A stretch of 64,000 bases of DNA from positions 2,170,001 through 2,234,000 of the forward strand of contig NZ_JAGJBY010000002.1 of the NCBI RefSeq assembly GCF_020010905.1. The letters run 5' to 3'. Below are positions 5,420 through 64,000 of the stretch, piece by piece. Below the pieces are notes generated by a model that was given only the letters and a program-made list of their open reading frames with translations, searched no databases and was not told the origin of the DNA. Source of the DNA: Streptomyces acidiscabies. GTDB lineage: Bacteria > Actinomycetota > Actinomycetes > Streptomycetales > Streptomycetaceae. The position numbers and the translations under genes are program-made. The stretch's first letter is position 1. Every line of letters begins with the position of its first letter.

Positions 5420-5997
5420 AGAGCCTGGAAGCGGTCGGCGGCGACGTCGTGCTCCTGCACGGCGCCGGTGTGGACCTCGTAGTACCAGCCGCGCACGGTC
5501 AGCCGTCCGTCGGCCACCCGCTTCTCGACGCAGGGGTAGGACCGCAGCCGCAGGAGCTGCGCGAGGACGTGGTTCTGGACCGCGCGGGCGACGGTCGGAT
5601 CGGACGGTTCGGTCGCGTCCGGCTCGTCGGCGGCGTGCGCCAGCCAGTCGCGGACGGCCGGGACGCCGTTCAGGTCGTCACCCCGTACGAGCGCGCCGAC
5701 CGCGCCGCAGTGCGAGTGACCGCAGACGACGATGTCGCGGACGCCGAGGACCTCCACGGCGTACTCGATGGTCGCGGCCTCGCCCGAGGGGGCGCCGGTG
5801 CCGTACGGGGGGACGATGTTGCCCGCGGTGCGCAGCTCGAAGAGCTCGCCGGGACGGGCGCCCGTGATCAGGGCGGGGACGACCCGCGAGTCGGAGCAGG
5901 TGATGAACAGGACCTGAGGGGACTGGCCTTCTGCGAGCTTGGCGAACTCCTCAGGGCGCTGTCCGAACGTACGGGCGTTGTCGATGAGGGGCTGCAT
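5416..5997 (-). CDS. Beta-class carbonic anhydrase
   Basis: A 193-aa zinc enzyme interconverting CO2 and bicarbonate. The beta-class signature is complete: CSDSR with zinc ligand Cys34 and the Asp36/Arg38 dyad, and HSHCGA with zinc ligands His94 and Cys97. Length is normal for the family. The ATG at 5997 follows a strong AGGAGG site. Its stop overlaps the start of the SulP transporter, so the pair forms a CO2/bicarbonate uptake and hydration unit. It is cytoplasmic, with no signal peptide. Confidence 0.93.
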   Translation of the reverse strand: MQPLIDNARTFGQRPEEFAKLAEGQSPQVLFITCSDSRVVPALITGARPGELFELRTAGNIVPPYGTGAPSGEAATIEYAVEVLGVRDIVVCGHSHCGAVGALVRGDDLNGVPAVRDWLAHAADEPDATEPSDPTVARAVQNHVLAQLLRLRSYPCVEKRVADGRLTVRGWYYEVHTGAVQEHDVAADRFQAL

Positions 5998-6081
5998 GTT
6001 CTGGTGACTCCTCCTGGCGCGCGTGGGGGCGCGTCGGACGTGCAGGACAGGGTGGGGAACTGCTCTGTTCTGCCCGCTCTC

Positions 6082-6489
6082 TCAGCAGCGGAAGACCTGG
6101 AGGGCCGCTGGAGAGTGGCTCGCCGAGGATCTCGACGGGCGATGGCGGTCCGCACCGGGCAGACCTGCCGGGTGCGCGCCCGCGGGATCCTGCGCCTTCT
6201 GCACGCGCTCGGGCTCGGAGGGAGCCGAGTCGGCGGTCAGAGTGGCGCGGCTTCGGTCGCGGGTGTGCAGCGGGCTCGCAGGCCCCCCGGACCGGTCACA
6301 GTCGCGGGACGTGACTTTGATGTCGCGCAGCGCGAGGCCCAGGGGATGCATTCCGGGCTGAGCTTTGGCCTGTGCGTGACGGGCTGTGTGCGCGTGTGCG
6401 AAGGGGGAGGCGCCGGTGAGGAAAGGGATCGCGAGCAGGAACGCCGCGATGAGCGCCATGCCCGTCCAGGCCCTCCCACCTCGGAACAT
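6082..6489 (-). CDS. Small secreted protein of unknown function
   Basis: A 135-aa product starting at the ATG at 6489, with a strong GAGGGGGG ribosome site. Residues 1-35 look like a Sec signal (FRGGR, then a hydrophobic ALIAAFLLAIPFLTG core ending near AHAHT). The mature part is polar, Arg/Ser/Pro-rich, with one RDIKVTSRDCDRSGGPA segment. I recall similar short secreted proteins in other streptomycetes, but no function. Codon bias and the ribosome site support a real gene; the low-complexity tail leaves doubt. Confidence 0.5.
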   Translation of the reverse strand: MFRGGRAWTGMALIAAFLLAIPFLTGASPFAHAHTARHAQAKAQPGMHPLGLALRDIKVTSRDCDRSGGPASPLHTRDRSRATLTADSAPSEPERVQKAQDPAGAHPAGLPGADRHRPSRSSASHSPAALQVFRC

Positions 6490-41217: not shown

Positions 41218-42111
41218 GGCCAGGGACGGGCTCGCCCACTTGAGGGTGCGCAGGACCGGGCCCGCCTCCAGGGCGTCGATCGCGTCCAGGGCGCCCAGTC
41301 TGCGCGTGAGGTAGTGGTGGAGGTCGGCCGGGTCGCGGCACAGGGCCTGGGCGACCAGGCTCGTGGGGCCGGTGGCCGAGGCGAGGAACGCCAGCTCGTC
41401 GTGGGCCGACAGGGCCGACGCGACCTCGTCCACGCGGGACGGGCGTACCGACAGCCACAGCAGGGCGCGGGTCGCCACGCCGAAGTGCGCCGCGTCGATC
41501 TCCACGTCGAAGAACAGGCCGCCGCCCGCGCGGAGTTCGGCCAGACGGCGAGCCACGGTGGCCGCCGTCCAGCCGGTCGCCCCGGCCAGGTCCGCGAGGG
41601 AGGTGCGGCCGTCCTGCATGAGCGCTGCGAGCAAGTCCCGGTCGGCGTCGGTGATCTGACGGGGAGTCGCCTCCGACTCCGGTTCCCTCAGGGCCTGTTG
41701 CTGGTCGGCGTCCAGGGTGTCCGCGCTGCGGCGCCAGTTCGCCGGGCCGCCGACGTACGTGTGCAGGAGCAGGTGCGCGGAGACCGAGGTGACGCCGGCC
41801 GTGCGCGGAACGTCGTGCAGGAGAAGGGAGTTGGTGTCCTGCGCGTCCGTCGGGGCGTGGACGACCGCCACGATCTCCGTGCCGCCCGAGACCAGCTTCA
41901 CCCACGACGTGTCTCGCCTGCGGACCAGCGCCGCCGCGAGGTCGCGTACGGAGGCCGGTGTCGCCGTCAGCCGTAGCAGCCACTGGGTGCGGCCCGCCGT
42001 GTGCGGGTCCGCCAGGCCCACCACCCTGAGACCCGGCCTCCTCCCGCAGCCGCCGGTAGCGGCGGGCCACGGTCTGTCCCGAGACGCCGAGCACCTCCGC
42101 GATCCGGCTGA
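41197..42111 (-). pseudogene. Lrp/AsnC-family regulator, C-terminal fragment (disrupted)
   Basis: The larger part of an AsnC-type regulator with two HTH/ligand halves: LSRIAEVLGVSGQTVARRYRRLREEAG at the 5' end, then RTQWLLRLTATPASVRDLAAAL, a second HTH (DRDLLAALMQDGRTSLADLA, TVARRLAELRAGG) and an effector half. Two lesions: the reading frame shifts by one base near 42029-42033 (an extra base between REEAG and LRVVGLAD), and the 5' end is cut off at 42111 by an insertion sequence. The missing N-terminus lies at 43913-43985. It was probably the regulator of the adjacent MFS gene. Confidence 0.85.
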
Positions 42112-43719
42112 GCTTGAAATTTAACCTTTGTTAGCTTTCATCCTGTTTCGTTCGGTGATGCTCTCGGGGCGTCTGGTCGTTTTGCCCACGTCGTGACGGG
42201 TGGCCGGGTGTCGGTTCTTCGAGCCAACTGGCCTTCCTGGTCCTGGCGTTGAGGGTTTCGGTGCGCGGGCCGGGCAGTGCAGGTGCGGGCGGAGGTTGCG
42301 AAACCCCCGGCGGACGCGGGCCGGGGTGAGCCGGGACGGCGCGACTGGCTTCTCCCAGGGGCGGCGGAGGTCGGCGGCGGCCTCGCGCAGGAGCCGGAGC
42401 TGAGTGTGGGCGGCGATCACGATCCAGGTCCAGCGGTCTGCGGCCTGGGGAGTCCGTAGTTTCGGGCGGGTCCAGCCGAGTGTCTGCTTGATCATCCGGA
42501 AGGTGTGTTCCAGGTCGAAGCGGCGAAGGAACACCTGCCAGCGCAGGTCAACGTCCGCGCCGGTCATGCCGGTCTTCGAGGACCACAGCCAGACCGGGAG
42601 GGGGTCCTGGCCGCCGGGCAGGTGGTCGACGGAGAGACGGATCTGGGTGCCCTCGATGACGGGGAGTTCGCCGGTGTGGTCGATCCAGGCGGAGCGGGTG
42701 GTCAGCTTGGGGTGGAGACGGTCCCAGGCCATGGCCATCGCGGTGCCGTAGCGGTCGGTGACCTGCACCGTCTCCGCGTCGGGCTCGCCCCAGGTCTCGG
42801 GCTTGGCGAAGCGGAACTCCTTGCCGTGCTTCGGCGGCCTCCCGCCCTGGGGATAGGTCTGGGCGTACTCCTTGAGGGACGGGGTCGGGTGGCGCATCAC
42901 CCGGTCCGTGCGCATCCGCCCCAGCACTTCGACCGGCAGGCCGGCCAGGAGGTAAGCCATGCGCGGGGCGTCGTAGCCGGCGTCGAAGACGATGAGGATG
43001 TCGGGGTCCTCCGGCTCCCACTGGCCGCCCTCGATCAGGCCGGTCACGACGCGGCGGACCTGGGCGGCGGTGACCTCGGCCACATCGTCGTCCGGGCCGA
43101 GACGGAGTGCGTCCAGCAGCTGGCACCACGAGGTGCGACCGGTCTCCAGCGCGGCGACGAACGAATACGGCCAGCCGGGAACGAACTGATCGCTGGAGCG
43201 TCCCGAGCGTCCGTAGACGTGACAGAACAGCCGCTCCGGACAGCACGGCGCGTCCGGCCGCAGCCAGTGCGTCACGTCGACCGCCAGGACGAGGCGGTTG
43301 TCGGCGGCCTTGGGCTGCGGCAGGATCGCCAGCGCCCGGCGCAGCCCGGCTTCGTCGATGTTTCCGCTGTTCAGCGCGTCGTAGAGGGCGCCGTGCCCGC
43401 GCCGGTGCTCGGCCAGGAGCGTGAGGCCGACCGGTGACGTGACGGGCCCGTTCTCGCAGAGCATCGCGTCCGCGAGCTCGAACAGGGTGTCACCGCGTCG
43501 GGTCAGGCACGCGTAGAAGTCTTCCCGGAAGTGTGACGTGAAGTCGAACGCCTCACGCCGGGCACCGTCGTCGAGCACACTCACCCCTGCGGCCTTCGTA
43601 TGAATCTGTTTCCTTGGCGGAACGCAGGATCATGCGAAGGCCGTCCGCCTGTCCGGCGAATCCACAGGTGAGTGACCTCGTACGACGCGCTGTTCGAGGC
43701 CAGAGGTTAAAGAACAAGC
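42112..43719 (-). mobile_element. Insertion sequence copy 1 (1,608 bp)
   Basis: Ends GCTTGTTCTTTAACCT (transposase 5' side) and GCTTGAAATTTAACCT (3' side) are 16-bp terminal inverted repeats with three central mismatches. Flanked by the direct repeat TGA (42109-42111 and 43720-43722). Same length and same encoded protein as the copy at 57719-59326, which is in opposite orientation. Inserted inside the Lrp gene, exactly at the end of a MITE-like element. Confidence 0.92.
42121..43584 (-). CDS. DDE-type transposase of IS copy 1
   Basis: A 487-aa transposase. Residues suited to the RNase-H-like DDE triad are in LVLAVDVTHW (first Asp), ILIVFDAGYD (second Asp) and the C-terminal RRFDLEHTFRMIKQTLGW stretch (Glu of the Y/HxxxE-type motif). 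It resembles the large Streptomyces DDE transposases of the IS4/IS701 superfamily. The C-terminal tail is Pro/Arg-rich. The stop TAA lies in the terminal repeat. Identical in sequence to the second copy's protein, so one transposed recently. Confidence 0.9.
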   Translation of the reverse strand: MSVLDDGARREAFDFTSHFREDFYACLTRRGDTLFELADAMLCENGPVTSPVGLTLLAEHRRGHGALYDALNSGNIDEAGLRRALAILPQPKAADNRLVLAVDVTHWLRPDAPCCPERLFCHVYGRSGRSSDQFVPGWPYSFVAALETGRTSWCQLLDALRLGPDDDVAEVTAAQVRRVVTGLIEGGQWEPEDPDILIVFDAGYDAPRMAYLLAGLPVEVLGRMRTDRVMRHPTPSLKEYAQTYPQGGRPPKHGKEFRFAKPETWGEPDAETVQVTDRYGTAMAMAWDRLHPKLTTRSAWIDHTGELPVIEGTQIRLSVDHLPGGQDPLPVWLWSSKTGMTGADVDLRWQVFLRRFDLEHTFRMIKQTLGWTRPKLRTPQAADRWTWIVIAAHTQLRLLREAAADLRRPWEKPVAPSRLTPARVRRGFRNLRPHLHCPARAPKPSTPGPGRPVGSKNRHPATRHDVGKTTRRPESITERNRMKANKG

Positions 43720-43722
43720 TGA

Positions 43723-43912
43723 GAGCCTGTGTCGCATCCCCGGTCGGATAGCGCACGTCGTCTGGTGCGTGGGATCGCAAGGCGCCGGAGCGCCCGCGTG
43801 GCGGAGCCACGTGGGCGTTTCGGCAACGCGGCTGGGGGTCCCCCCTGCTCGCAGAGCTTGGGGGAGTGCGTGCCAGGCGGCGCGCGCCCGGCCGGGGATG
43901 CGACACAGGCTC
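43723..43912. mobile_element. MITE-like element copy 1 (190 bp)
   Basis: Terminal inverted repeats begin GAGCCTGTGTCGCATCCCC and extend about 21-24 bp at both ends. The interior is GC-rich with a near-perfect hairpin around CCCGCGTGGC/GCCACGTGGGC and no gene. A copy about 98% identical, in opposite orientation, lies at 59330-59520. The GAG ends and T-N-A flanks resemble IS5/IS1031-group elements, so it may be a deletion derivative moved in trans (inference). It separates the IS from the Lrp N-terminal fragment. Confidence 0.85.
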
Positions 43913-51844: not shown

Positions 51845-52744
51845 TCACCTGCGCCTCAACCGCGTGAACAGGGCGGTGCCGCCGGCGAGTACGAGGATCG
51901 CCGCGGCGCCGCCCGCCAGCATGGGGGCGGAGGGGCCGGAGTCGGTGGTCTTCGCCACGGGGGTGCTGTCGGGGGTCGCGGCGGCGGGCACCGGGGTGAC
52001 GGCGGGCGCGGAAGCCGTGGCCGGGCTGGGAGTCGGGGTCGGTTCGGGTTTCGTCGCCGGTGCCGAAGCCTCCTGCCCTGAAGGCGCTTTCTGCCCCGAA
52101 GCAGCCTCCTGCTTCGCCGCCCCCGGGAACACCACGTCCGAGCACGAGTAGTACGTGTCCGCCGTACTCGTGTTCTGCCAGATCGTGTACAGCACCTGCC
52201 GCCCCGTCCGGTCGGCCGGCAGCTTCGCGCTGAACCGGTAGGCCCCGCCCGTGAGTTGAGGGTCCTTGACGACCGCGAACGGCTCCGACGGCAGCTCGGA
52301 CCAGGTGAGCGGCTTCGTCGGGTCGTACCCCGGTTTCGTCAGGTACAGCTTGAACGACCCGGTGTGCGGGATCGTCGACGCGTACGTCATCCGCAGCGTC
52401 GCCCCCGGCCGCAGCTCCGTCGCGGGCCAGTCGTCGCGCGCCAGGTCGAGCCCCTTGTACGCGGGAAGACCCCCGCTGCACAGCTCGCCGTCCGGGATCG
52501 TCTGCCGGTCGCGTCCGTCCACGCCGGCCACGCGCAGGTTGTCCCACGCCGCGAAGGACGCGCCGTTCGCCTTCACCGCCGCGCGGCAGGCCGCCGTACC
52601 GGCGTTCGCGCCGCCCTCGGGGGAGCAGGCGAAGACGCGGCTCACCGGGGTCGTGGGGGCGCCGTGCGCGGCGGCGGGTCCGGCGGCGACGGCCAGCGTG
52701 CCGAGCACGGCCGCCGTGAGCGGGACGAGACGGTGACGGAACAT
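51845..52744 (-). CDS. AA10 lytic polysaccharide monooxygenase with C-terminal anchor
   Basis: A 299-aa protein. Signal peptide 1-26 ends in AAA, leaving His27 as the mature N-terminus (HGAPTTPVSR). Together with His127 (IPHTGS) it forms the copper histidine brace; Phe206 (CSDVVF) is the axial residue. Catalytic domain 27-210, then a Pro/Ala/Thr linker and a C-terminal helix (about 275-292) with LRRR. Such enzymes oxidatively cleave chitin or cellulose; the specificity is not readable here. Most AA10 enzymes are free or carry a binding module, so the tail anchor is unusual. ATG 52744 has GGAGG upstream. Confidence 0.9.
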   Translation of the reverse strand: MFRHRLVPLTAAVLGTLAVAAGPAAAHGAPTTPVSRVFACSPEGGANAGTAACRAAVKANGASFAAWDNLRVAGVDGRDRQTIPDGELCSGGLPAYKGLDLARDDWPATELRPGATLRMTYASTIPHTGSFKLYLTKPGYDPTKPLTWSELPSEPFAVVKDPQLTGGAYRFSAKLPADRTGRQVLYTIWQNTSTADTYYSCSDVVFPGAAKQEAASGQKAPSGQEASAPATKPEPTPTPSPATASAPAVTPVPAAATPDSTPVAKTTDSGPSAPMLAGGAAAILVLAGGTALFTRLRRR

Positions 52745-53122
52745 GAGGGAACGCCTCCTCGGGAACGGCTGCACCGGGCATGTACGGCTGCCCGGGCGCC
52801 CGCGTTCAGTCGCTGCCCTGATCAGCAGAGATGCCGTCGGAAAACACTTTCCGTTCTTTTGCCGAGAGTGGGGAGCAAACCGGACATCCGCTCCCCAACT
52901 GTCCCTGGAAATGGGGTTCTCTCGACGTGATCTAGGGTTTCCCCTGTATCCGGATGACCTTCTCTTTGCCTATCGTTCGACCACAGCCGACCCACAGGTA
53001 ACCCCGAAACCGGTCGGCCGACCCGCCTGGCCCGCCATCGCGCGCTCCTCGACGCACTCCCCGCCGCTTCGACGCCGAAGCGAACTCGACCGTCGCTCCC
53101 GCCCCTGTGCCCGGAGCCGGCC
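52745..53122. promoter_or_regulatory. Divergent intergenic region between LPMO and subtilase genes
   Basis: About 378 bases with no convincing gene. TAGGGT (52933-52938) is a reasonable -10 on the plus strand for the protease, giving a leader of about 175 nucleotides; no good -35 is seen. Confidence 0.3.
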
Positions 53123-54916
<1,794 letters not shown>

Positions 54917-54968
54917 CGGATCGTCAACTCACGTGAGACCGCGAGGGGTTGACCTCGCCTCATGACGA

Positions 54969-55012
54969 ACGGCGGACCGGCCGGTGTGGATGGACACCGG
55001 CCGGTCCGCCGT
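54969..55012 (+). terminator. Strong terminator after the protease gene
   Basis: ACGGCGGACCGGCCGGTGT (54969-54987) and its exact complement arm (54994-55012) form a perfect 19-bp stem with loop GGATGG, about 50 bases after the protease stop. Confidence 0.85.
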
Positions 55013-55075
55013 CATGACGTTTCCGGAAACGTTTCTTTCTCCGCAGCCTCCGGGGCCGTCCTCACGCGGTCGCCC

Positions 55076-55723
55076 TCACGAAGCCACCCTTTCGGGCGAC
55101 CCCAGGACCCGCACGCCCCGGTCCGCCTTCGTGTCCAGCGCGGGCAGCAGCCCCGGTACGGCGATGCTCGGCAGGATGTGCGTCCACAGCACCGACAGCC
55201 GCTCGCCGAGGTCCGCGCGCCCGGACAGCGCCCGGGACATCAGCTGGATCCCGCTGAAGCAGCCGACGAGCAGCTCCACCGTCTGCCGGGGCTGTACCGT
55301 CGGCAGCAACTCCCCCCGGTCCCGGGCCTGTTCGAGCAGGTCCTCCAGCCGCTGGGACCACTGCCGGTACGGCCCTCCGTGATCGATGCGGGCCGGCGCC
55401 TCCTGGTCGACCGCGAGGCGGATGCTCCCTCTCAACAAGGAACTGGTCAGCAGGCGTTGGCCGACGACGAACGTCATGTCGACGATCTCCTGGAGCTTGC
55501 ACGCCTGTGCCGGGACGCTCCCGAACGGCACCTGCTCGCCCAGCACCGCCTGCGCCAGCGCCTCCTTGGACGGGAAGTGGAAGTACAGCGCGCCCTTGGT
55601 GACGGCGGAGCGCTCCAGGACCATGGCGATGGTGGTGGACGTGTAACCGTGCTCGTCGAAAACCTCACCGGCCGCTTCCACGATGGCTTGGCGCGTTCTG
55701 ATGGCGCGCTCCTGTTTAGCCAT
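55076..55723 (-). CDS. GBL-receptor-type TetR regulator (ArpA/ScbR family)
   Basis: A 215-aa TetR protein with the receptor-family N-terminus AKQERAIRTRQAIVEAAGEVFDEHGY, the HTH TTIAMVLERSAVTKGALYFHF, and a ligand domain with the conserved Trp (YRQWSQRLEDLL) that packs on the lactone ring in ArpA/CprB-like receptors. Divergent from the AfsA homologue, the classical arrangement of a GBL receptor and synthase. It should repress the shared promoter region until a GBL binds (known for the family). Confidence 0.9.
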   Translation of the reverse strand: MAKQERAIRTRQAIVEAAGEVFDEHGYTSTTIAMVLERSAVTKGALYFHFPSKEALAQAVLGEQVPFGSVPAQACKLQEIVDMTFVVGQRLLTSSLLRGSIRLAVDQEAPARIDHGGPYRQWSQRLEDLLEQARDRGELLPTVQPRQTVELLVGCFSGIQLMSRALSGRADLGERLSVLWTHILPSIAVPGLLPALDTKADRGVRVLGSPERVAS

Positions 55724-55815
55724 AAGAGCCCCTCCGCGGGACCGAGTTGGCCGATCCCGCGATCGTGTGTCTGTTCGGCCCGATCATAGGATGCCGTCGA
55801 CTGATCTCATTGATG

Positions 55816-55835
55816 CCAAACCGGTCGCCTCGTAC
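55816..55835. promoter_or_regulatory. Candidate GBL-receptor operator (ARE-like half site)
   Basis: CCAAACCGGTCGCC contains AACCGGTCG, a half of the autoregulatory elements bound by ScbR/ArpA-type receptors as I recall them. It lies in the 179-base gap between the receptor and AfsA genes, which also contains the -10-like TAGGAT (55787-55792). The other half is weak. Confidence 0.4.
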
Positions 55836-55902
55836 TCTAACGTTCGCTGTGGGGACGATTCACCGTCCGCCGTGGCTCATGGGTGACCGCAGGGAGGATG
55901 CG

Positions 55903-56820
55903 ATGACCCGACCGCGGCAGTCTGCTGACACCCCGTCCCTGACGGCAACCGTCCCTCGCCAGTTCGTCCACCGCGCAGCCCTCGCCGAAACGTTTCTCAC
56001 CGGCTGGGAGCGCACCGAGGCCGACCGTTTCACCGTGTGCGCACAGTGGCCCCGTGCCCATGGGTTACACGTGTCCCCGGACTGGTGCTCCTACGACCCC
56101 TTGCTCGTGGTGGAGACGGTCCGTCAGGCCGGCACCCTGATCATGCACACCGAGTACGGCGTCCCGCTGGACCGGCAGTTCGTGCTCAACGCCTTCGAAG
56201 TCACCACGGATCCGCACCGGTTGGAGGTCGGGCCGGTGCCGGCCGAGCCGACCGTCGAACTCGACTTCACCGAGGTGCGCTACCGGGGCGGCCAGCCTGC
56301 CGCCTGCCGCTACTCCGCCCGCGTCCTGTGCTGCGGGGAGCAGGCCGCGACCGCCGACGTCGCCTTCACCTGCGTCGGCGAGGCCGTCTACCGCAGGCTG
56401 CGCGGCGGCCGGACGCCCGGCACGGTGACGGCCGTTCCGCTGCCGCCCGGGCTGCCGCCGCAGGTCGTGGACCGGGCACTGCCCACCGACGTCGTCCTCG
56501 CCCTCCCCGGCCTCGATCCGGGGGCGCCCGGCGGGAGTTGGCAGCTCCGGGTAAATACCGCACACCCCGTTTTCTTCGACCATCCGCTCGATCACGTCCC
56601 CGGGATGCTCCTGCTGGAGGCGGCCCGGCAGGCAGCCCGGTTCGCTCTTCCGGGCAAATATGCCCCCAGCGCATACCGGGCGGTCTTCCACAGGTACGCT
56701 GAGCTGGACGAACCCGTCTGGATCGAGGCTCGCGACGAAGGCGGCGGACACCTCCAAGTCGTCGGCGTGCAACGGGAGTCGGCAGTCTTCGAGTGTGGGG
56801 TCGACGCCGCCGCAGGGTGA
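55903..56820 (+). CDS. AfsA/ScbA-type gamma-butyrolactone biosynthesis protein
   Basis: A 305-aa double hot-dog protein from ATG 55903 with AGGGAGG five bases upstream. Typical sequence: VPRQFVHRAALAETFLTGW, DPLLVVETVRQAGTLIMHTEYGVPL, and the second repeat NTAHPVFFDHPLDHVPGMLLLEAARQAA. AfsA homologues condense dihydroxyacetone phosphate with a beta-ketoacyl thioester to begin GBL synthesis. Codon 55 is TTA (56065-56067), predicting bldA dependence. Flanked by two receptor-type regulators; no reductase or P450 for GBL tailoring is in the window. Confidence 0.92.
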   Translation: MTRPRQSADTPSLTATVPRQFVHRAALAETFLTGWERTEADRFTVCAQWPRAHGLHVSPDWCSYDPLLVVETVRQAGTLIMHTEYGVPLDRQFVLNAFEVTTDPHRLEVGPVPAEPTVELDFTEVRYRGGQPAACRYSARVLCCGEQAATADVAFTCVGEAVYRRLRGGRTPGTVTAVPLPPGLPPQVVDRALPTDVVLALPGLDPGAPGGSWQLRVNTAHPVFFDHPLDHVPGMLLLEAARQAARFALPGKYAPSAYRAVFHRYAELDEPVWIEARDEGGGHLQVVGVQRESAVFECGVDAAAG

Positions 56821-56842
56821 GTTATTGTGTACAGGGGGTGAG

Positions 56843-56868
56843 AAACAAACGGCATGACCCGTTCTTTT
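56843..56868. promoter_or_regulatory. ARE-like inverted repeat before the second receptor
   Basis: AAACAAACGG and CCGTTCTTTT are complementary at 8 of 10 positions around a six-base centre. AAACAAACGG resembles ScbR/ArpA operator half-sites. It lies 25 bases before the preferred start codon, fitting control by one or both receptors. Confidence 0.5.
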
Positions 56869-56892
56869 ACCGGCCCAGGAGTGTCTCAGGCG

Positions 56893-57549
56893 ATGGCGAG
56901 GCAGTTACGCGCCGAACAGACCCGCGCGACGATCATCACGGCGGCGGCCGATCTGTTCGACCGACATGGTTACGAATCGACGAGCCTCAGTGACATCGTC
57001 GAGCACGCCCAAGTCACCAAGGGCGCCCTGTACTTCCACTTCGCGGCCAAGGAGGACCTGGCCCACGCGATCATGGAACTCCAGTCCCAGGCCTCGCAGC
57101 GCGTCGCGGGCGAGATCGACAACCGGGGCTACTCCTCCCTCGAAGCGCTGATGCGGCTCACGTTCGGCCTGACCCGGCTGTCCGTCGAAGGGCCCATCGC
57201 CCGGGCCGGGTTGAGGCTCGCGACCGGGGGAGTCGCGGTGAGACCCCCGCTGCGCCACCCCTTCTCCGAGTGGGGTGAGCTGATCAACCGCGGTCTGTCC
57301 GGCGCGGTCCGTGAGGCCGACATACACCAGGACGTCGACATCGAGGCGGTCGCGCACTCCCTGGTCTGCTTCTTCGTCGGCACCCGCGTGGTGGGCCGCT
57401 CCCGCGAGGCCTCCGGCCGGCTTCCGCGCCGGATGGCGGAGATGTGGTACGTCCTGATCCGCGGCCTCGTCCCGGTCCCGCGCAGACCGCGCTATCTGAG
57501 CCTGGCGTCGAGGCTGGAGCGGGAGATCACGGCGGCGTGCGTGTCCTGA
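56893..57549 (+). CDS. Second GBL-receptor-like TetR regulator (pseudo-receptor type)
   Basis: A 218-aa TetR protein from ATG 56893 (ARQLRAEQTRATIITAAADLFDRHGY), HTH TSLSDIVEHAQVTKGALYFHF. It belongs to the ArpA-like clade often called pseudo-receptors (ScbR2/JadR2), which typically bind antibiotics or intermediates rather than GBLs and repress antibiotic genes (family knowledge). In-frame ATG 56854 lies inside the operator and is not favoured. Ends 169 bases before IS copy 2; that gap shows no gene. Confidence 0.88.
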   Translation: MARQLRAEQTRATIITAAADLFDRHGYESTSLSDIVEHAQVTKGALYFHFAAKEDLAHAIMELQSQASQRVAGEIDNRGYSSLEALMRLTFGLTRLSVEGPIARAGLRLATGGVAVRPPLRHPFSEWGELINRGLSGAVREADIHQDVDIEAVAHSLVCFFVGTRVVGRSREASGRLPRRMAEMWYVLIRGLVPVPRRPRYLSLASRLEREITAACVS

Positions 57550-57718
57550 GCGGGGCGTACTCGCTCTGGTGGGACGCGAGTTCACGGCGCTGTTCGGATC
57601 GCGTGTGGCCTGAACCCGTTTCAGGAAGCGTTTTCGACAAGGCCGACGGGGGACAGGTGGTCGTACGGCGGGCGCGCGGGTCCGCCGTGCCGTGTGGGGC
57701 ATGGCGCGGGGGGCCTCA

Positions 57719-59326
57719 GCTTGTTCTTTAACCTCTGGCCTCGAACAGCGCGTCGTACGAGGTCACTCACCTGTGGATTCGCCGGACAGGCGGACGGCCT
57801 TCGCATGATCCTGCGTTCCGCCAAGGAAACAGATTCATACGAAGGCCGCAGGGGTGAGTGTGCTCGACGACGGTGCCCGGCGTGAGGCGTTCGACTTCAC
57901 GTCACACTTCCGGGAAGACTTCTACGCGTGCCTGACCCGACGCGGTGACACCCTGTTCGAGCTCGCGGACGCGATGCTCTGCGAGAACGGGCCCGTCACG
58001 TCACCGGTCGGCCTCACGCTCCTGGCCGAGCACCGGCGCGGGCACGGCGCCCTCTACGACGCGCTGAACAGCGGAAACATCGACGAAGCCGGGCTGCGCC
58101 GGGCGCTGGCGATCCTGCCGCAGCCCAAGGCCGCCGACAACCGCCTCGTCCTGGCGGTCGACGTGACGCACTGGCTGCGGCCGGACGCGCCGTGCTGTCC
58201 GGAGCGGCTGTTCTGTCACGTCTACGGACGCTCGGGACGCTCCAGCGATCAGTTCGTTCCCGGCTGGCCGTATTCGTTCGTCGCCGCGCTGGAGACCGGT
58301 CGCACCTCGTGGTGCCAGCTGCTGGACGCACTCCGTCTCGGCCCGGACGACGATGTGGCCGAGGTCACCGCCGCCCAGGTCCGCCGCGTCGTGACCGGCC
58401 TGATCGAGGGCGGCCAGTGGGAGCCGGAGGACCCCGACATCCTCATCGTCTTCGACGCCGGCTACGACGCCCCGCGCATGGCTTACCTCCTGGCCGGCCT
58501 GCCGGTCGAAGTGCTGGGGCGGATGCGCACGGACCGGGTGATGCGCCACCCGACCCCGTCCCTCAAGGAGTACGCCCAGACCTATCCCCAGGGCGGGAGG
58601 CCGCCGAAGCACGGCAAGGAGTTCCGCTTCGCCAAGCCCGAGACCTGGGGCGAGCCCGACGCGGAGACGGTGCAGGTCACCGACCGCTACGGCACCGCGA
58701 TGGCCATGGCCTGGGACCGTCTCCACCCCAAGCTGACCACCCGCTCCGCCTGGATCGACCACACCGGCGAACTCCCCGTCATCGAGGGCACCCAGATCCG
58801 TCTCTCCGTCGACCACCTGCCCGGCGGCCAGGACCCCCTCCCGGTCTGGCTGTGGTCCTCGAAGACCGGCATGACCGGCGCGGACGTTGACCTGCGCTGG
58901 CAGGTGTTCCTTCGCCGCTTCGACCTGGAACACACCTTCCGGATGATCAAGCAGACACTCGGCTGGACCCGCCCGAAACTACGGACTCCCCAGGCCGCAG
59001 ACCGCTGGACCTGGATCGTGATCGCCGCCCACACTCAGCTCCGGCTCCTGCGCGAGGCCGCCGCCGACCTCCGCCGCCCCTGGGAGAAGCCAGTCGCGCC
59101 GTCCCGGCTCACCCCGGCCCGCGTCCGCCGGGGGTTTCGCAACCTCCGCCCGCACCTGCACTGCCCGGCCCGCGCACCGAAACCCTCAACGCCAGGACCA
59201 GGAAGGCCAGTTGGCTCGAAGAACCGACACCCGGCCACCCGTCACGACGTGGGCAAAACGACCAGACGCCCCGAGAGCATCACCGAACGAAACAGGATGA
59301 AAGCTAACAAAGGTTAAATTTCAAGC
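57719..59326 (+). mobile_element. Insertion sequence copy 2 (1,608 bp)
   Basis: Same length, terminal repeats and transposase as the copy at 42112-43719, but in opposite orientation. Flanked by the direct repeat TCA (57716-57718 and 59327-59329). The 3' side joins directly to the MITE end at 59330. The two copies enclose about 14 kb as an inverted pair. Confidence 0.92.
57854..59317 (+). CDS. DDE-type transposase of IS copy 2
   Basis: 487 aa, identical in sequence to the protein of copy 1. GTG start 57854 follows GCAGGG. The stop lies inside the right terminal repeat. No degradation is visible, so the element is probably active. Confidence 0.9.
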   Translation: MSVLDDGARREAFDFTSHFREDFYACLTRRGDTLFELADAMLCENGPVTSPVGLTLLAEHRRGHGALYDALNSGNIDEAGLRRALAILPQPKAADNRLVLAVDVTHWLRPDAPCCPERLFCHVYGRSGRSSDQFVPGWPYSFVAALETGRTSWCQLLDALRLGPDDDVAEVTAAQVRRVVTGLIEGGQWEPEDPDILIVFDAGYDAPRMAYLLAGLPVEVLGRMRTDRVMRHPTPSLKEYAQTYPQGGRPPKHGKEFRFAKPETWGEPDAETVQVTDRYGTAMAMAWDRLHPKLTTRSAWIDHTGELPVIEGTQIRLSVDHLPGGQDPLPVWLWSSKTGMTGADVDLRWQVFLRRFDLEHTFRMIKQTLGWTRPKLRTPQAADRWTWIVIAAHTQLRLLREAAADLRRPWEKPVAPSRLTPARVRRGFRNLRPHLHCPARAPKPSTPGPGRPVGSKNRHPATRHDVGKTTRRPESITERNRMKANKG

Positions 59327-59329
59327 TCA

Positions 59330-59520
59330 GAGCCTGTGTCACATCCCCGGCCGGGCGCCCGCCGCCTGGCACGCACTCCCCCAAGCTCTGCGAGCAGGGG
59401 GGACCCCCAGCCGCGTTGCCGAAACGCCCACGTGGCTCCGCCACGCGGGCGCTCCGGCGCCTTGCGATCGCACGCACCAGACGACGTGCGCTGATCCGAC
59501 CGGGGATGCGACACAGGCTC
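59330..59520. mobile_element. MITE-like element copy 2 (191 bp)
   Basis: Reverse-oriented copy of 43723-43912, differing at about four positions (one single-base indel, three substitutions). Its left end touches the TCA duplication of IS copy 2; its right end is 34 bases upstream of the next gene's ATG. Both ends carry the GAGCCTGTGTC inverted repeat. Confidence 0.85.
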
Positions 59521-59554
59521 TGACGGGGCCGATCCGCGCGATACGGTGATCCGC

Positions 59555-60724
59555 ATGCCCCACACCCCCGCCCCGCCGGTGCTCCTCGGCGACGAACCCG
59601 GCTCCTTCCGCCGCTCCGTCCTCGCCGAACGGCACCCCGCGATCATCCGCCAGGTGCGCGAGGCGTTCCCGTACGACCCCACGGTGACCCGCGCCCTCGA
59701 CGCGCTGTCGGTCACCTGTACGGAGGGTGTCCTGGAGCCGCTCCCCTCTGACGCGCACGACCTCGACCGCTGGCGCGCCTGGGGGCTCGACGCCCTGCTC
59801 GGCACCTCCTGGTACGACGTGCCGTGGCTCTGGTCGGAGAGCTACTTCTACCGGCAACTCCTCGAAGCCGTCGGCTACTTCACCCCAGGCCCCGGCCAAG
59901 GCGTCGACCCCTTCCGCCCGTTCAAGCTGGCGGAACTCGACTCCCCGGAGACCGCCGAGGAGTTGGCCGCCCTCGACGCCCTGACCGCCCTGTCCGAGGA
60001 CGAGCGCGGCCGGGCCCTGCTGCACGGCTCCCTCTGGGGCAACCGCGCCGACCTCGGCTTCCGCCTCTCCGACGCCGGCGCCGAAGAGCGCGCCGCCGTA
60101 CCGGCGTTGGTCGCCGACGACAGCGACGCGCTGTGGGCGGCGCTGAAGGACGCGGCGAGCGTCTGCCTGGTCGCCGACAACGCGGGACGCGAACTCGTCC
60201 CCGACCTGCTGTTCCTGGACCACCTGCTGACGGAGCGTCAGATCGGGCGGGCGGTGCTGCACGTCAAGCCGTACCCGTACTACGTCTCCGACGCGACCTA
60301 CGCCGATGTCCTGGACGCCGTACGGACGTTGGTGGCGGCTCCCGGTGTCGCCGGTGCGTGCGGACGGCGGGTGTGGGCCGCGCTGTCCGACGGGACCCTC
60401 GTCGTGCGCGCGCACCCCTTCTCCGCCTCGCCGCTGGGGTACGCGGAGATGCCGGACGACCTGCGTGCCGACTTCGCGGGGGCCTCGGTGACGATCCTCA
60501 AGGGGGACCTCAACTACCGGCGCCTGGTGGGGGACCGGATGTGGCCGCCGACGACGCCGTTCGCGGACGTCACCGCGTACTTCCCGGGGGCGGTCGCGGC
60601 GCTCAGGACCCTCAAGTCCGATGTGATCACGGGGCTTTCGGCCGAGACCGAGGCGGCGTTGACGGCAACTGAGGCCCAGGAGTGGCGAATTGGTGGGACG
60701 CGGGCGCTGATCCAGGTGCGGTGA
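59555..60724 (+). CDS. ARMT1/DUF89-like damage-control phosphatase family protein
   Basis: A 389-aa protein from ATG 59555 (GTG 59546 also possible; no clear ribosome site). DUF89 hallmarks: LLHGSLWGNRADLG, the metal-binding CLVADNAGRELVPDLLFLD, VHVKPYPYYVSDAT and SVTILKGDLNYRRLVGD. Subfamily III members (ARMT1-like) hydrolyse phosphate from damaged sugar phosphates; the bacterial substrate is unknown. MITE copy 2 ends 34 bases upstream, so the native promoter may have been displaced. Convergent with the hydrolase gene, four bases apart. Confidence 0.85.
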   Translation: MPHTPAPPVLLGDEPGSFRRSVLAERHPAIIRQVREAFPYDPTVTRALDALSVTCTEGVLEPLPSDAHDLDRWRAWGLDALLGTSWYDVPWLWSESYFYRQLLEAVGYFTPGPGQGVDPFRPFKLAELDSPETAEELAALDALTALSEDERGRALLHGSLWGNRADLGFRLSDAGAEERAAVPALVADDSDALWAALKDAASVCLVADNAGRELVPDLLFLDHLLTERQIGRAVLHVKPYPYYVSDATYADVLDAVRTLVAAPGVAGACGRRVWAALSDGTLVVRAHPFSASPLGYAEMPDDLRADFAGASVTILKGDLNYRRLVGDRMWPPTTPFADVTAYFPGAVAALRTLKSDVITGLSAETEAALTATEAQEWRIGGTRALIQVR

Positions 60725-60728
60725 GCGG

Positions 60729-61502
60729 TCAGCCGTCCGTCCTCAGGAAGTCCTCCACCACCCGGATCAGCTCCAACGGCGTCTCGTCCATGGCGTAATG
60801 ACCCGCCGACGCCAGCTCGTACAACTCGGCGTTCGGGTACCACTCCAGCCACGTCGCCCGCATCAACTCCGCCGACAGCGCCGGGTCCAGGGCGCCCGTC
60901 ACCGCGAGGGACGGCACCGGCGAGCCCTCCGTGTCCGCGTGGAAGTCCTCGCGGGCCCAGGAGTCGAGCCAGGCGCGGAACGCCTTCGCGTCGCTCACCG
61001 CGAGGGAGCGGGCGACCATCCGGTCCAGCCAGGCGGCGGGGCGCGCGCCGCCGGTCGTCACGTCGAGGATCGCCCGCCGGTTCTCGGGGCGCCGGTCGGC
61101 CTCGGCGAACAGCGTCCACTGCTCCGGCGGCAGGTCGAGCCCCGCCGCGGGCACCGGCGACACGCCCACCAACCGCCGTACCCGGTCCGGGACTTGGGCC
61201 AGCAGCCGTTGTCCGATCGCGCCGCCCATCGAGTGCCCGACGACCGAGAAGCGCGCCCAGCCGAGCCGGTCGGCCAGCTCCACCAGGTCGGCGGCGGCCT
61301 CGGCGGTCGTGAACGCGCCGCCCGCGTCGCGCGCCGCGCCGTACCCGCGCAGGTCGACCAGCGCGTACTGGAACGCCGACCGGTCGAGGTCGGGCAGGAC
61401 AGGCGCGTACGCCGTGCGGTCGGCGAGCCAGCCGTGCACCGCGAACACCTTGTGGGCGCCGTCGCCGTGCAGTTCGTGGGGGAGCGTGAAGGGGGTCGTC
61501 AT
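60729..61502 (-). CDS. Alpha/beta hydrolase
   Basis: A 257-aa hydrolase from ATG 61502: KVFAVHGWLADRTAYAPVL as the oxyanion region, nucleophile in GHSMGG, acidic residue in VTGALDPALSAEL and catalytic His in ASAGHYAMDETP. No signal peptide. Substrate unknown. The 200 bases between it and the geosmin synthase gene (61503-61702) contain the two divergent promoters but no obvious element. Confidence 0.88.
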   Translation of the reverse strand: MTTPFTLPHELHGDGAHKVFAVHGWLADRTAYAPVLPDLDRSAFQYALVDLRGYGAARDAGGAFTTAEAAADLVELADRLGWARFSVVGHSMGGAIGQRLLAQVPDRVRRLVGVSPVPAAGLDLPPEQWTLFAEADRRPENRRAILDVTTGGARPAAWLDRMVARSLAVSDAKAFRAWLDSWAREDFHADTEGSPVPSLAVTGALDPALSAELMRATWLEWYPNAELYELASAGHYAMDETPLELIRVVEDFLRTDG

Positions 61503-61693
61503 GGGGTCACGGTGCGGGGCGGGAGGGGGTGGCGGCAAGAGGGCGTACGGGTCCGAAGGCAGGGGGCGTACGGCGCTCCGCGCGCTCCCTGCGTGAGTCC
61601 GCACTCCGGCGCTCGCGCAACCGTTCGGGCCGAATTCACGCGATGGTGTGATCATGTGCGGCCGTACGGATGCGCCCCGGGAGGCGTGGGTAA

Positions 61694-63898
<2,205 letters not shown>

Positions 63899-63984
63899 GA
63901 CATTCACTGAACCTTGGGGAGGCATACGGAGTCTTCTGGGGTGAGGGGAACGTCCGAACCGACTCACTACGGGGGTAGTGCCTC

Positions 63985-64000
63985 ATGACCGACACCGTTG
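63985..64000 (+). CDS. Start of a downstream gene (cut by window end)
   Basis: ATG 63985 after GGGGGTAG begins TDTV before the window ends. Nothing about its product can be read. The 86 bases between the geosmin synthase stop and this start show no clear terminator. Confidence 0.35.

Follow-up and report, generated by a model that had tools for sequence, protein, structure and literature searches.

Do three neighbouring γ-butyrolactone (GBL)-type genes in Streptomyces acidiscabies form a single signalling module, and has an insertion sequence (IS) that lies beside them cut them from a larger cluster? The genes lie in a stretch of 64,000 nucleotides (NCBI RefSeq assembly GCF_020010905.1, contig NZ_JAGJBY010000002.1, positions 2,170,001 to 2,234,000 of the forward strand), hereafter the window, and comprise a receptor gene (REC1), an afsA homologue transcribed divergently from it, and a gene for a second receptor-like regulator. 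Our preferred reading, to which we assign a probability of about 0.68, is that they constitute a GBL receptor/synthase/pseudo-receptor module that holds a fixed seat beside cprB and the geosmin synthase gene, and whose synthase mRNA has kept a UUA codon.

Gene identity and chromosomal seat

An initial annotation, made from the letters of the window, had placed receptor, AfsA and receptor-like regulator together in a compact GBL-type cluster; their open reading frames, strands and coordinates were confirmed (Table 1), each matched its family model, and all three genes are intact. AfsA matched NF041195 (1.3e-101, 339.7 bits against a cut-off of 200) and, over two hotdog stretches, PF03756 (1e-41, 142.5 bits against a cut-off of 24). 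The most likely start of afsA appears to be the ATG at 55903, which has AGGGAGG just 5' of it; with this start, the TTA becomes codon 55. REC1 matched NF041196 (7.1e-67, 225.3 bits against a cut-off of 150), and its best match among solved structures was AvaR1 (1.7e-56). The second regulator also matched NF041196 (2.1e-56), and its closest solved receptor was by far CprB (1ui5, 8.8e-100; next AvaR1, 2.9e-25). Together with the shared synteny of cprB, an ARMT1-like gene and geosmin synthase, this identifies it as the orthologue of S. coelicolor CprB; alignment with CprB favoured the start at 56893 over that at 56854. The identity of this regulator, its own TTA codon, and the ARMT1-like, hydrolase and geosmin synthase neighbours had been overlooked by the initial annotation.

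We searched 392 genomes of the genus with AfsA and with CprB. The AfsA group comprises 45 genomes, including that of the window, at 58-100% identity, after which identity drops to 48%, with one case at 51%. CprB matches at E <= 1e-40 were found in 132 genomes, of which 131 were kept (67-100% identity); the remaining one (G276, 43%) was set aside and its locus not fetched. These 131 genomes gave 134 cprB loci, with up to 10 kb fetched per side and with second cprB-like copies (L160, L161 and L167) included. Because 18 of the stretches are shorter than 15 kb, neighbour counts are lower bounds. One locus whose contig begins inside afsA (L120) was scored as AfsA-negative in the locus counts and as full in the tree. 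About one third of the cprB-bearing genomes are thus AfsA-positive (45/131, or 46 if L120 is counted).

The afsA gene lay directly upstream of cprB in all 45 loci of its group, with a gap of 63-93 bp. Geosmin synthase followed cprB in the same orientation in at least 118 of the 134 loci, and the ARMT1-like gene in at least 122; in 122 loci the latter sits between cprB and geosmin synthase. A subtilase gene was present in 40/45 AfsA-positive against 24/89 AfsA-negative loci, which is probably a clade effect. In one genome, whose CprB is identical to the PDB protein across 212 residues, the order is cprB-ARMT-geosmin synthase and there is no AfsA next to cprB. In a family-wide draw, CprB occurred in 11 of 121 genomes, all belonging to the genus of the window (one of 17 genera). 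A scan of 52000-64000 against Rfam gave no structured-RNA match near the locus.

Table 1. Features of the module, followed by its surroundings (window coordinates)
Feature	Position	Strand	Remarks
REC1, ScbR/ArpA-type receptor	55076..55723	-	215 aa, divergent to afsA
afsA, AfsA/ScbA-family GBL synthase	55903..56820	+	305 aa
cprB orthologue, pseudo-receptor-like regulator	56893..57549	+	pI 9.43, TTA at codon 5
afsA codon 55, TTA (UUA)	56065..56067	+	
cprB codon 5, TTA	56905-56907	+	
afsA promoter-operator	55810..55838	+	-35 TTGATG, 17-nt spacer CCAAACCGGTCGCCTCG, -10 TACTCT
CprB-type operator before cprB	56844..56864	+	AACAAACGGCATGACCCGTTC
IS with IS701-like transposase (NF041680)	57715..59330	+	recent insertion, outside the module
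MITE (miniature inverted-repeat transposable element)-like repeat with inverted ends	59331..59520	.	also absent from L171
ARMT1-like (PF01937) protein	59546..60724	+	conserved cprB neighbour
Alpha/beta hydrolase	60729..61655	-	neighbour, variable among loci
Germacradienol/geosmin synthase	61703..63898	+	PDB 5dw7, 2.7e-217
Subtilase with P-domain	53123..54916	+	neighbour on the upstream side

The two regulators were compared using published criteria for genuine and pseudo-receptors (PMC7480387, PMC7347384). By model score, isoelectric point (pI) and predicted ligand residues, REC1 looks like a genuine-type GBL receptor: its pI is 6.92 in the window, with a median of 5.93 (n=46), and Gln64, Trp122, Val153, Phe156 and Gln160 are invariant in 43/43 sequences. 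CprB looks pseudo-receptor-like, with a median pI of 9.78, Arg in place of Gln165 in 130/134 loci, and Trp127 in 108/134; on the GBL-binding side this is a prediction. A raw association between Trp127 and the presence of AfsA disappeared when independent pairs were compared.

Conserved codons and operators

The standard case of a conserved TTA codon is adpA. That the afsA gene carries TTA at codon 55, as the initial annotation had noted, was confirmed, and the codon was retained in frame in 40 of the 45 orthologues, as a predicted bldA-controlled gene requires; the others have TTG (2), CTG (2) or GTG (1), and these five exceptions represent five separate changes on the tree. Among the other 1232 leucine codons of the group only five are TTA, and of the 18 columns with at least 80% leucine, residue 55 is the only TTA column. 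A tally of 69 named loci of the group, which overlap the 45-locus set, gave TTA in 57, CTG in 6, TTG in 4 and GTG in 2, after removal of L169, whose row read ACG. Outside the group, TTA was found at residue 55 in none of 51 AfsA sequences, and anywhere in the aligned part in 11. From these patterns the codon looks selectively kept, and a bldA gate would be the likeliest reason. Residue 223 of AfsA is encoded by GTT, an uncommon valine codon at high GC, in 43/45 sequences (0.956). L169 holds a second AfsA-family gene of the window's genome (G000 C2:3565074; L169:9694-10617), with a divergent ScbR-family regulator and, as neighbours, genes for an Asp/Glu racemase-like protein, a cytokinin-dehydrogenase-like FAD enzyme and a fatty acid desaturase.

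Codon 5 of cprB reads TTA in 86 of the 134 loci, CTA in 22, TTG in 12, GTA in 12, and CTG and ATA in one each. It ends in TA in 121/134 loci and codon 3 is AGG in 133/134 (start region 56893-56910 in the window), a combination that makes a nucleotide-level constraint on this start region likely.

The majority form of the afsA promoter is CATTGAAAACAAACCGGTCGsCTCGTACTCT. Allowing for two variants, of which the second (7 loci) has one extra base, the operator was found with at most three mismatches in all 45 loci (none in 33, one in 9, two in 2, and three in 1), as compared with an average of 10.1 mismatches to the main variant in shuffled upstream sequences. The spacing TTGAAA-17/18 nt-TA..T is present in 41/45. 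One 23-mer inside the receptor gene is as conserved as this operator. The cprB operator was found with at most two mismatches in 45/45 AfsA-positive loci; in AfsA-negative loci it ranged from 0 to 8 mismatches, being exact in 13/89. In position, the predicted site of the window overlaps with the cprB operator reported at -47 to -21 (PMC4150764). Across the genome the window's afsA operator was the only match of exact scale; at up to three mismatches, we found its own site plus one other for the afsA operator and its own site plus seven others for the cprB operator, with 0 and 1 matches, respectively, for the reversed-pattern controls. Two of these eight additional matches were examined, and both lie inside apparent coding frames; we propose no wider regulon.

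Remnants, the reductase and the insertion sequence

A FastTree phylogeny of CprB, ARMT and geosmin synthase was built from 127 of the 134 loci, seven having been omitted for too little sequence. It contains a module-free clade of 32 rows and a mixed clade of 95, and the presence or absence of the module requires 10 changes. Being unrooted, the tree is consistent with either (i) gain of the module in the ancestor of the larger clade, or (ii) its loss from an ancestral state. Remnants point to repeated loss: L106 and L122 have a receptor without AfsA, L062 and L066 have AfsA without a receptor, L115 retains a 63-residue receptor piece and an operator with two mismatches, and the AfsA of L121 is broken. 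The best reading is that the module was lost, partly or wholly, several times through stepwise erosion, with cprB staying behind.

The absence of an adjacent tailoring reductase, also noted initially, was borne out: none lies beside afsA in the window, which therefore does not hold a complete GBL biosynthetic cluster in the sense of one with a reductase beside afsA. A reductase gene is found directly behind the receptor, and on its strand, in 13/45 AfsA-positive and 0/89 AfsA-negative loci, leaving 32 AfsA-positive loci, the window included, that lack it; it occurs in 26 of the 69 named loci, whose species overlap with the 45-locus set. Its product is an NAD(P)H-binding/NmrA protein (PF13460, 7.4e-21), for which no NCBIfam model scored above its cut-off. 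Since relatives of the reductase on Streptomyces plasmids adjoin ScbR-family genes in all four loci opened, one of which also has a ScbA-family gene, we take it from gene context for a candidate tailoring enzyme, putatively BprA/ScbB-like. The gap between subtilase and receptor genes measures 162 bp in the window, compared with about 900-1100 bp in loci that have the reductase. The closest relative of the reductase at another site in the genome of the window shows 45% identity. The reductase is thus genuinely missing from the window, but its absence is older than the IS.

The IS, whose transposase (57857-59317) matched NF041680 at 3.7e-173, begins 166 bp after the cprB stop codon, and this proximity had suggested that it cut the cluster from former neighbours. 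That suggestion deserves virtually no credence. S. niveiscabiei NRRL B-24457 (L171) has an AfsA 97% identical to that of the window and lacks IS, repeat and reductase; its empty site joins, at 5769 and 5772, the bases that correspond to 57715 and 59521 of the window, so that insertion of IS and repeat accounts for the whole difference between the two. Both L171 and the window show the same gene order, an observation in a relative without the IS that the initial annotation had itself named as telling against its claim, and the order cprB-ARMT is that of the relatives. The transposase was present only at the window's own locus among the 134, and where relatives have the reductase it lies on the other side of the module from the IS. 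The insertion is recent and did not cut the cluster, and the empty site excludes the IS as a cause of gene loss; of the idea of lost neighbours, what survives is a likely reductase beside the cluster in 13 relatives. An identical second IS copy lies 15 kb away, at 42108-43723 on the minus strand. Both copies abut one end of a repeat of about 195 bp with inverted ends, present in the genome in seven or more further near-full-length copies, and the IS may target this repeat.

Could the cluster instead be decaying and without function in the lineage of the window? The missing reductase, the remnants elsewhere, and the IS and repeat inserted so close behind cprB would fit such a state. We nevertheless regard it as very unlikely, given that the three genes are intact and near the full length of their families, that the operator and the TTA codon have been kept, and that 31 other AfsA-positive genomes without the reductase also retain an intact AfsA and its operator.

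Proposed circuit and known systems

In the circuit that we propose, REC1 would repress afsA by binding to the operator that occupies the promoter spacer of this gene; the AfsA product would release REC1, and its own synthesis would rise. With a single UUA in its mRNA, the synthase should reach full length only once charged bldA tRNA is available, late in growth. CprB, with a promoter-operator of its own, would act as an autoregulated pseudo-receptor and provide a second level of control. In the lineage of the window, either another enzyme may carry out the reduction that the missing reductase would perform, or the signal may be an unreduced, butenolide-type compound. CprB would be the last remnant of the module in many species, perhaps S. 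coelicolor among them. A bolder form of this proposal, in which synthase and CprB are both bldA-gated, S. coelicolor CprB is a last relic, and the product of the AfsA lineage, or a related compound, is sensed by CprB or its lost partner REC1, strikes us as doubtful; if true, production of the signal would have to await a developmental checkpoint, and it would be explained why a CprB ligand was never found among the S. coelicolor butanolides (SCBs).

Several observations weigh against parts of our preferred reading. Geosmin synthase was not seen in the stretch examined at 12 of the 45 AfsA-positive loci. We detected no operator upstream of geosmin synthase (the best candidates had 8 and 5 mismatches), nor one before the ARMT1-like or subtilase genes, and therefore control of geosmin synthesis by the module has no support. 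The apparent link between the cprB TTA codon and AfsA (40/45 against 46/89 loci) vanished with eight independent pairs (p about 1), and the receptor-first role of REC1 is one that we infer from its residues only. In bldA mutants, certain TTA genes are still expressed (PMC4932002). The afsA codon, moreover, might be kept for a reason at the DNA or RNA level, involving the block TTACACGTGTC, in which it lies, or the palindrome ACACGTGT, rather than for control by bldA. The codons that follow it are nearly fixed (CAC in 43/45, GTG in 44/45), and by top-codon fraction the TTA ranks 9th of 72 conserved four- and six-fold columns; as codons elsewhere are equally fixed, another nucleotide-level constraint is possible. 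We consider it unlikely to be the reason, however, because the codons just before the TTA vary (CAC 25, CAT 20), because the block behind it persists where the TTA has been lost, and because it is the sole rare leucine codon kept, the other 17 of the 18 conserved leucine columns not being TTA.

Alternatively, the AfsA product might be the missing ligand of CprB, with afsA and cprB forming the signal-receptor pair and REC1 only a local brake. The strict adjacency of afsA and cprB favours such a pairing, as does the report that CprB is released by S. coelicolor culture extract and not by SCB2 (PMC4150764). The pseudo-receptor traits of CprB, including the loss of Gln165, weigh against it as a direct sensor of the AfsA product. 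Trp127, too, is lost in 17/45 AfsA-positive loci and is kept more often without AfsA (80/89), a difference that is not significant once ancestry is accounted for. The genome with a CprB identical to that of S. coelicolor lacks an AfsA of this group next to cprB, yet S. coelicolor extract is active. Taken together, these points make the pairing decidedly unlikely.

Like ScbR-ScbA(-ScbB) and ArpA-AfsA(-BprA), the module that we favour has divergent receptor and synthase genes, the promoter of the latter being covered by an operator, and an NAD(P)-binding reductase is present in 13/45 relatives; it differs from both in its seat beside cprB and geosmin synthase, in lacking an adjoining antibiotic cluster, in the conserved TTA of the synthase, and in the absence of a reductase from the window. 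SfbR-SfbA-SfbR2 of S. filipinensis (PMC7480387) shares the set of receptor, synthase and pseudo-receptor and the contrast in pI between the regulators, but the third member here is CprB, by orthology not of the ScbR2/JadR2 type, and the gene order differs. The avenolide receptor AvaR1, the nearest solved structure to REC1, has Gln64, Trp127, Val158, Phe161 and Gln165, all kept in REC1. Its Thr131, a contact of the avenolide C10 hydroxyl (PMC7347384), is Leu in 43/43 REC1 sequences and its Thr108 is Ala in 29/43, so REC1 is probably not an avenolide receptor.

Our searches of the open-licence PMC literature turned up no description of an AfsA-cprB-geosmin synthase locus or of a conserved AfsA TTA, which is a weak negative. 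As in the Streptomyces genes reviewed by Chater (2013, PMC4255298), TTA is kept here across orthologues of a regulatory gene. The portion of Table 2 of that review that runs from 5970 to 6156 does not contain 6071 (cprB), and afsA falls outside the S. coelicolor-based list because S. coelicolor lacks an orthologue of it next to cprB. The retained UUA offers a simple test of whether a rare tRNA times the synthesis of a bacterial hormone.

S. coelicolor CprB (PMC4150764) is an orthologue that shares the place of the operator and the ARMT-geosmin synthase neighbours; the CprB of the locus matching the PDB protein is 71% identical to that of the window. The S. coelicolor-type locus differs in having no AfsA or receptor beside cprB, and CTA rather than TTA at codon 5. 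A crystal structure of CprB has been available since 2004 while its ligand is still missing (PMC4150764), and the module provides both a concrete compound to seek and the strains in which to seek it.

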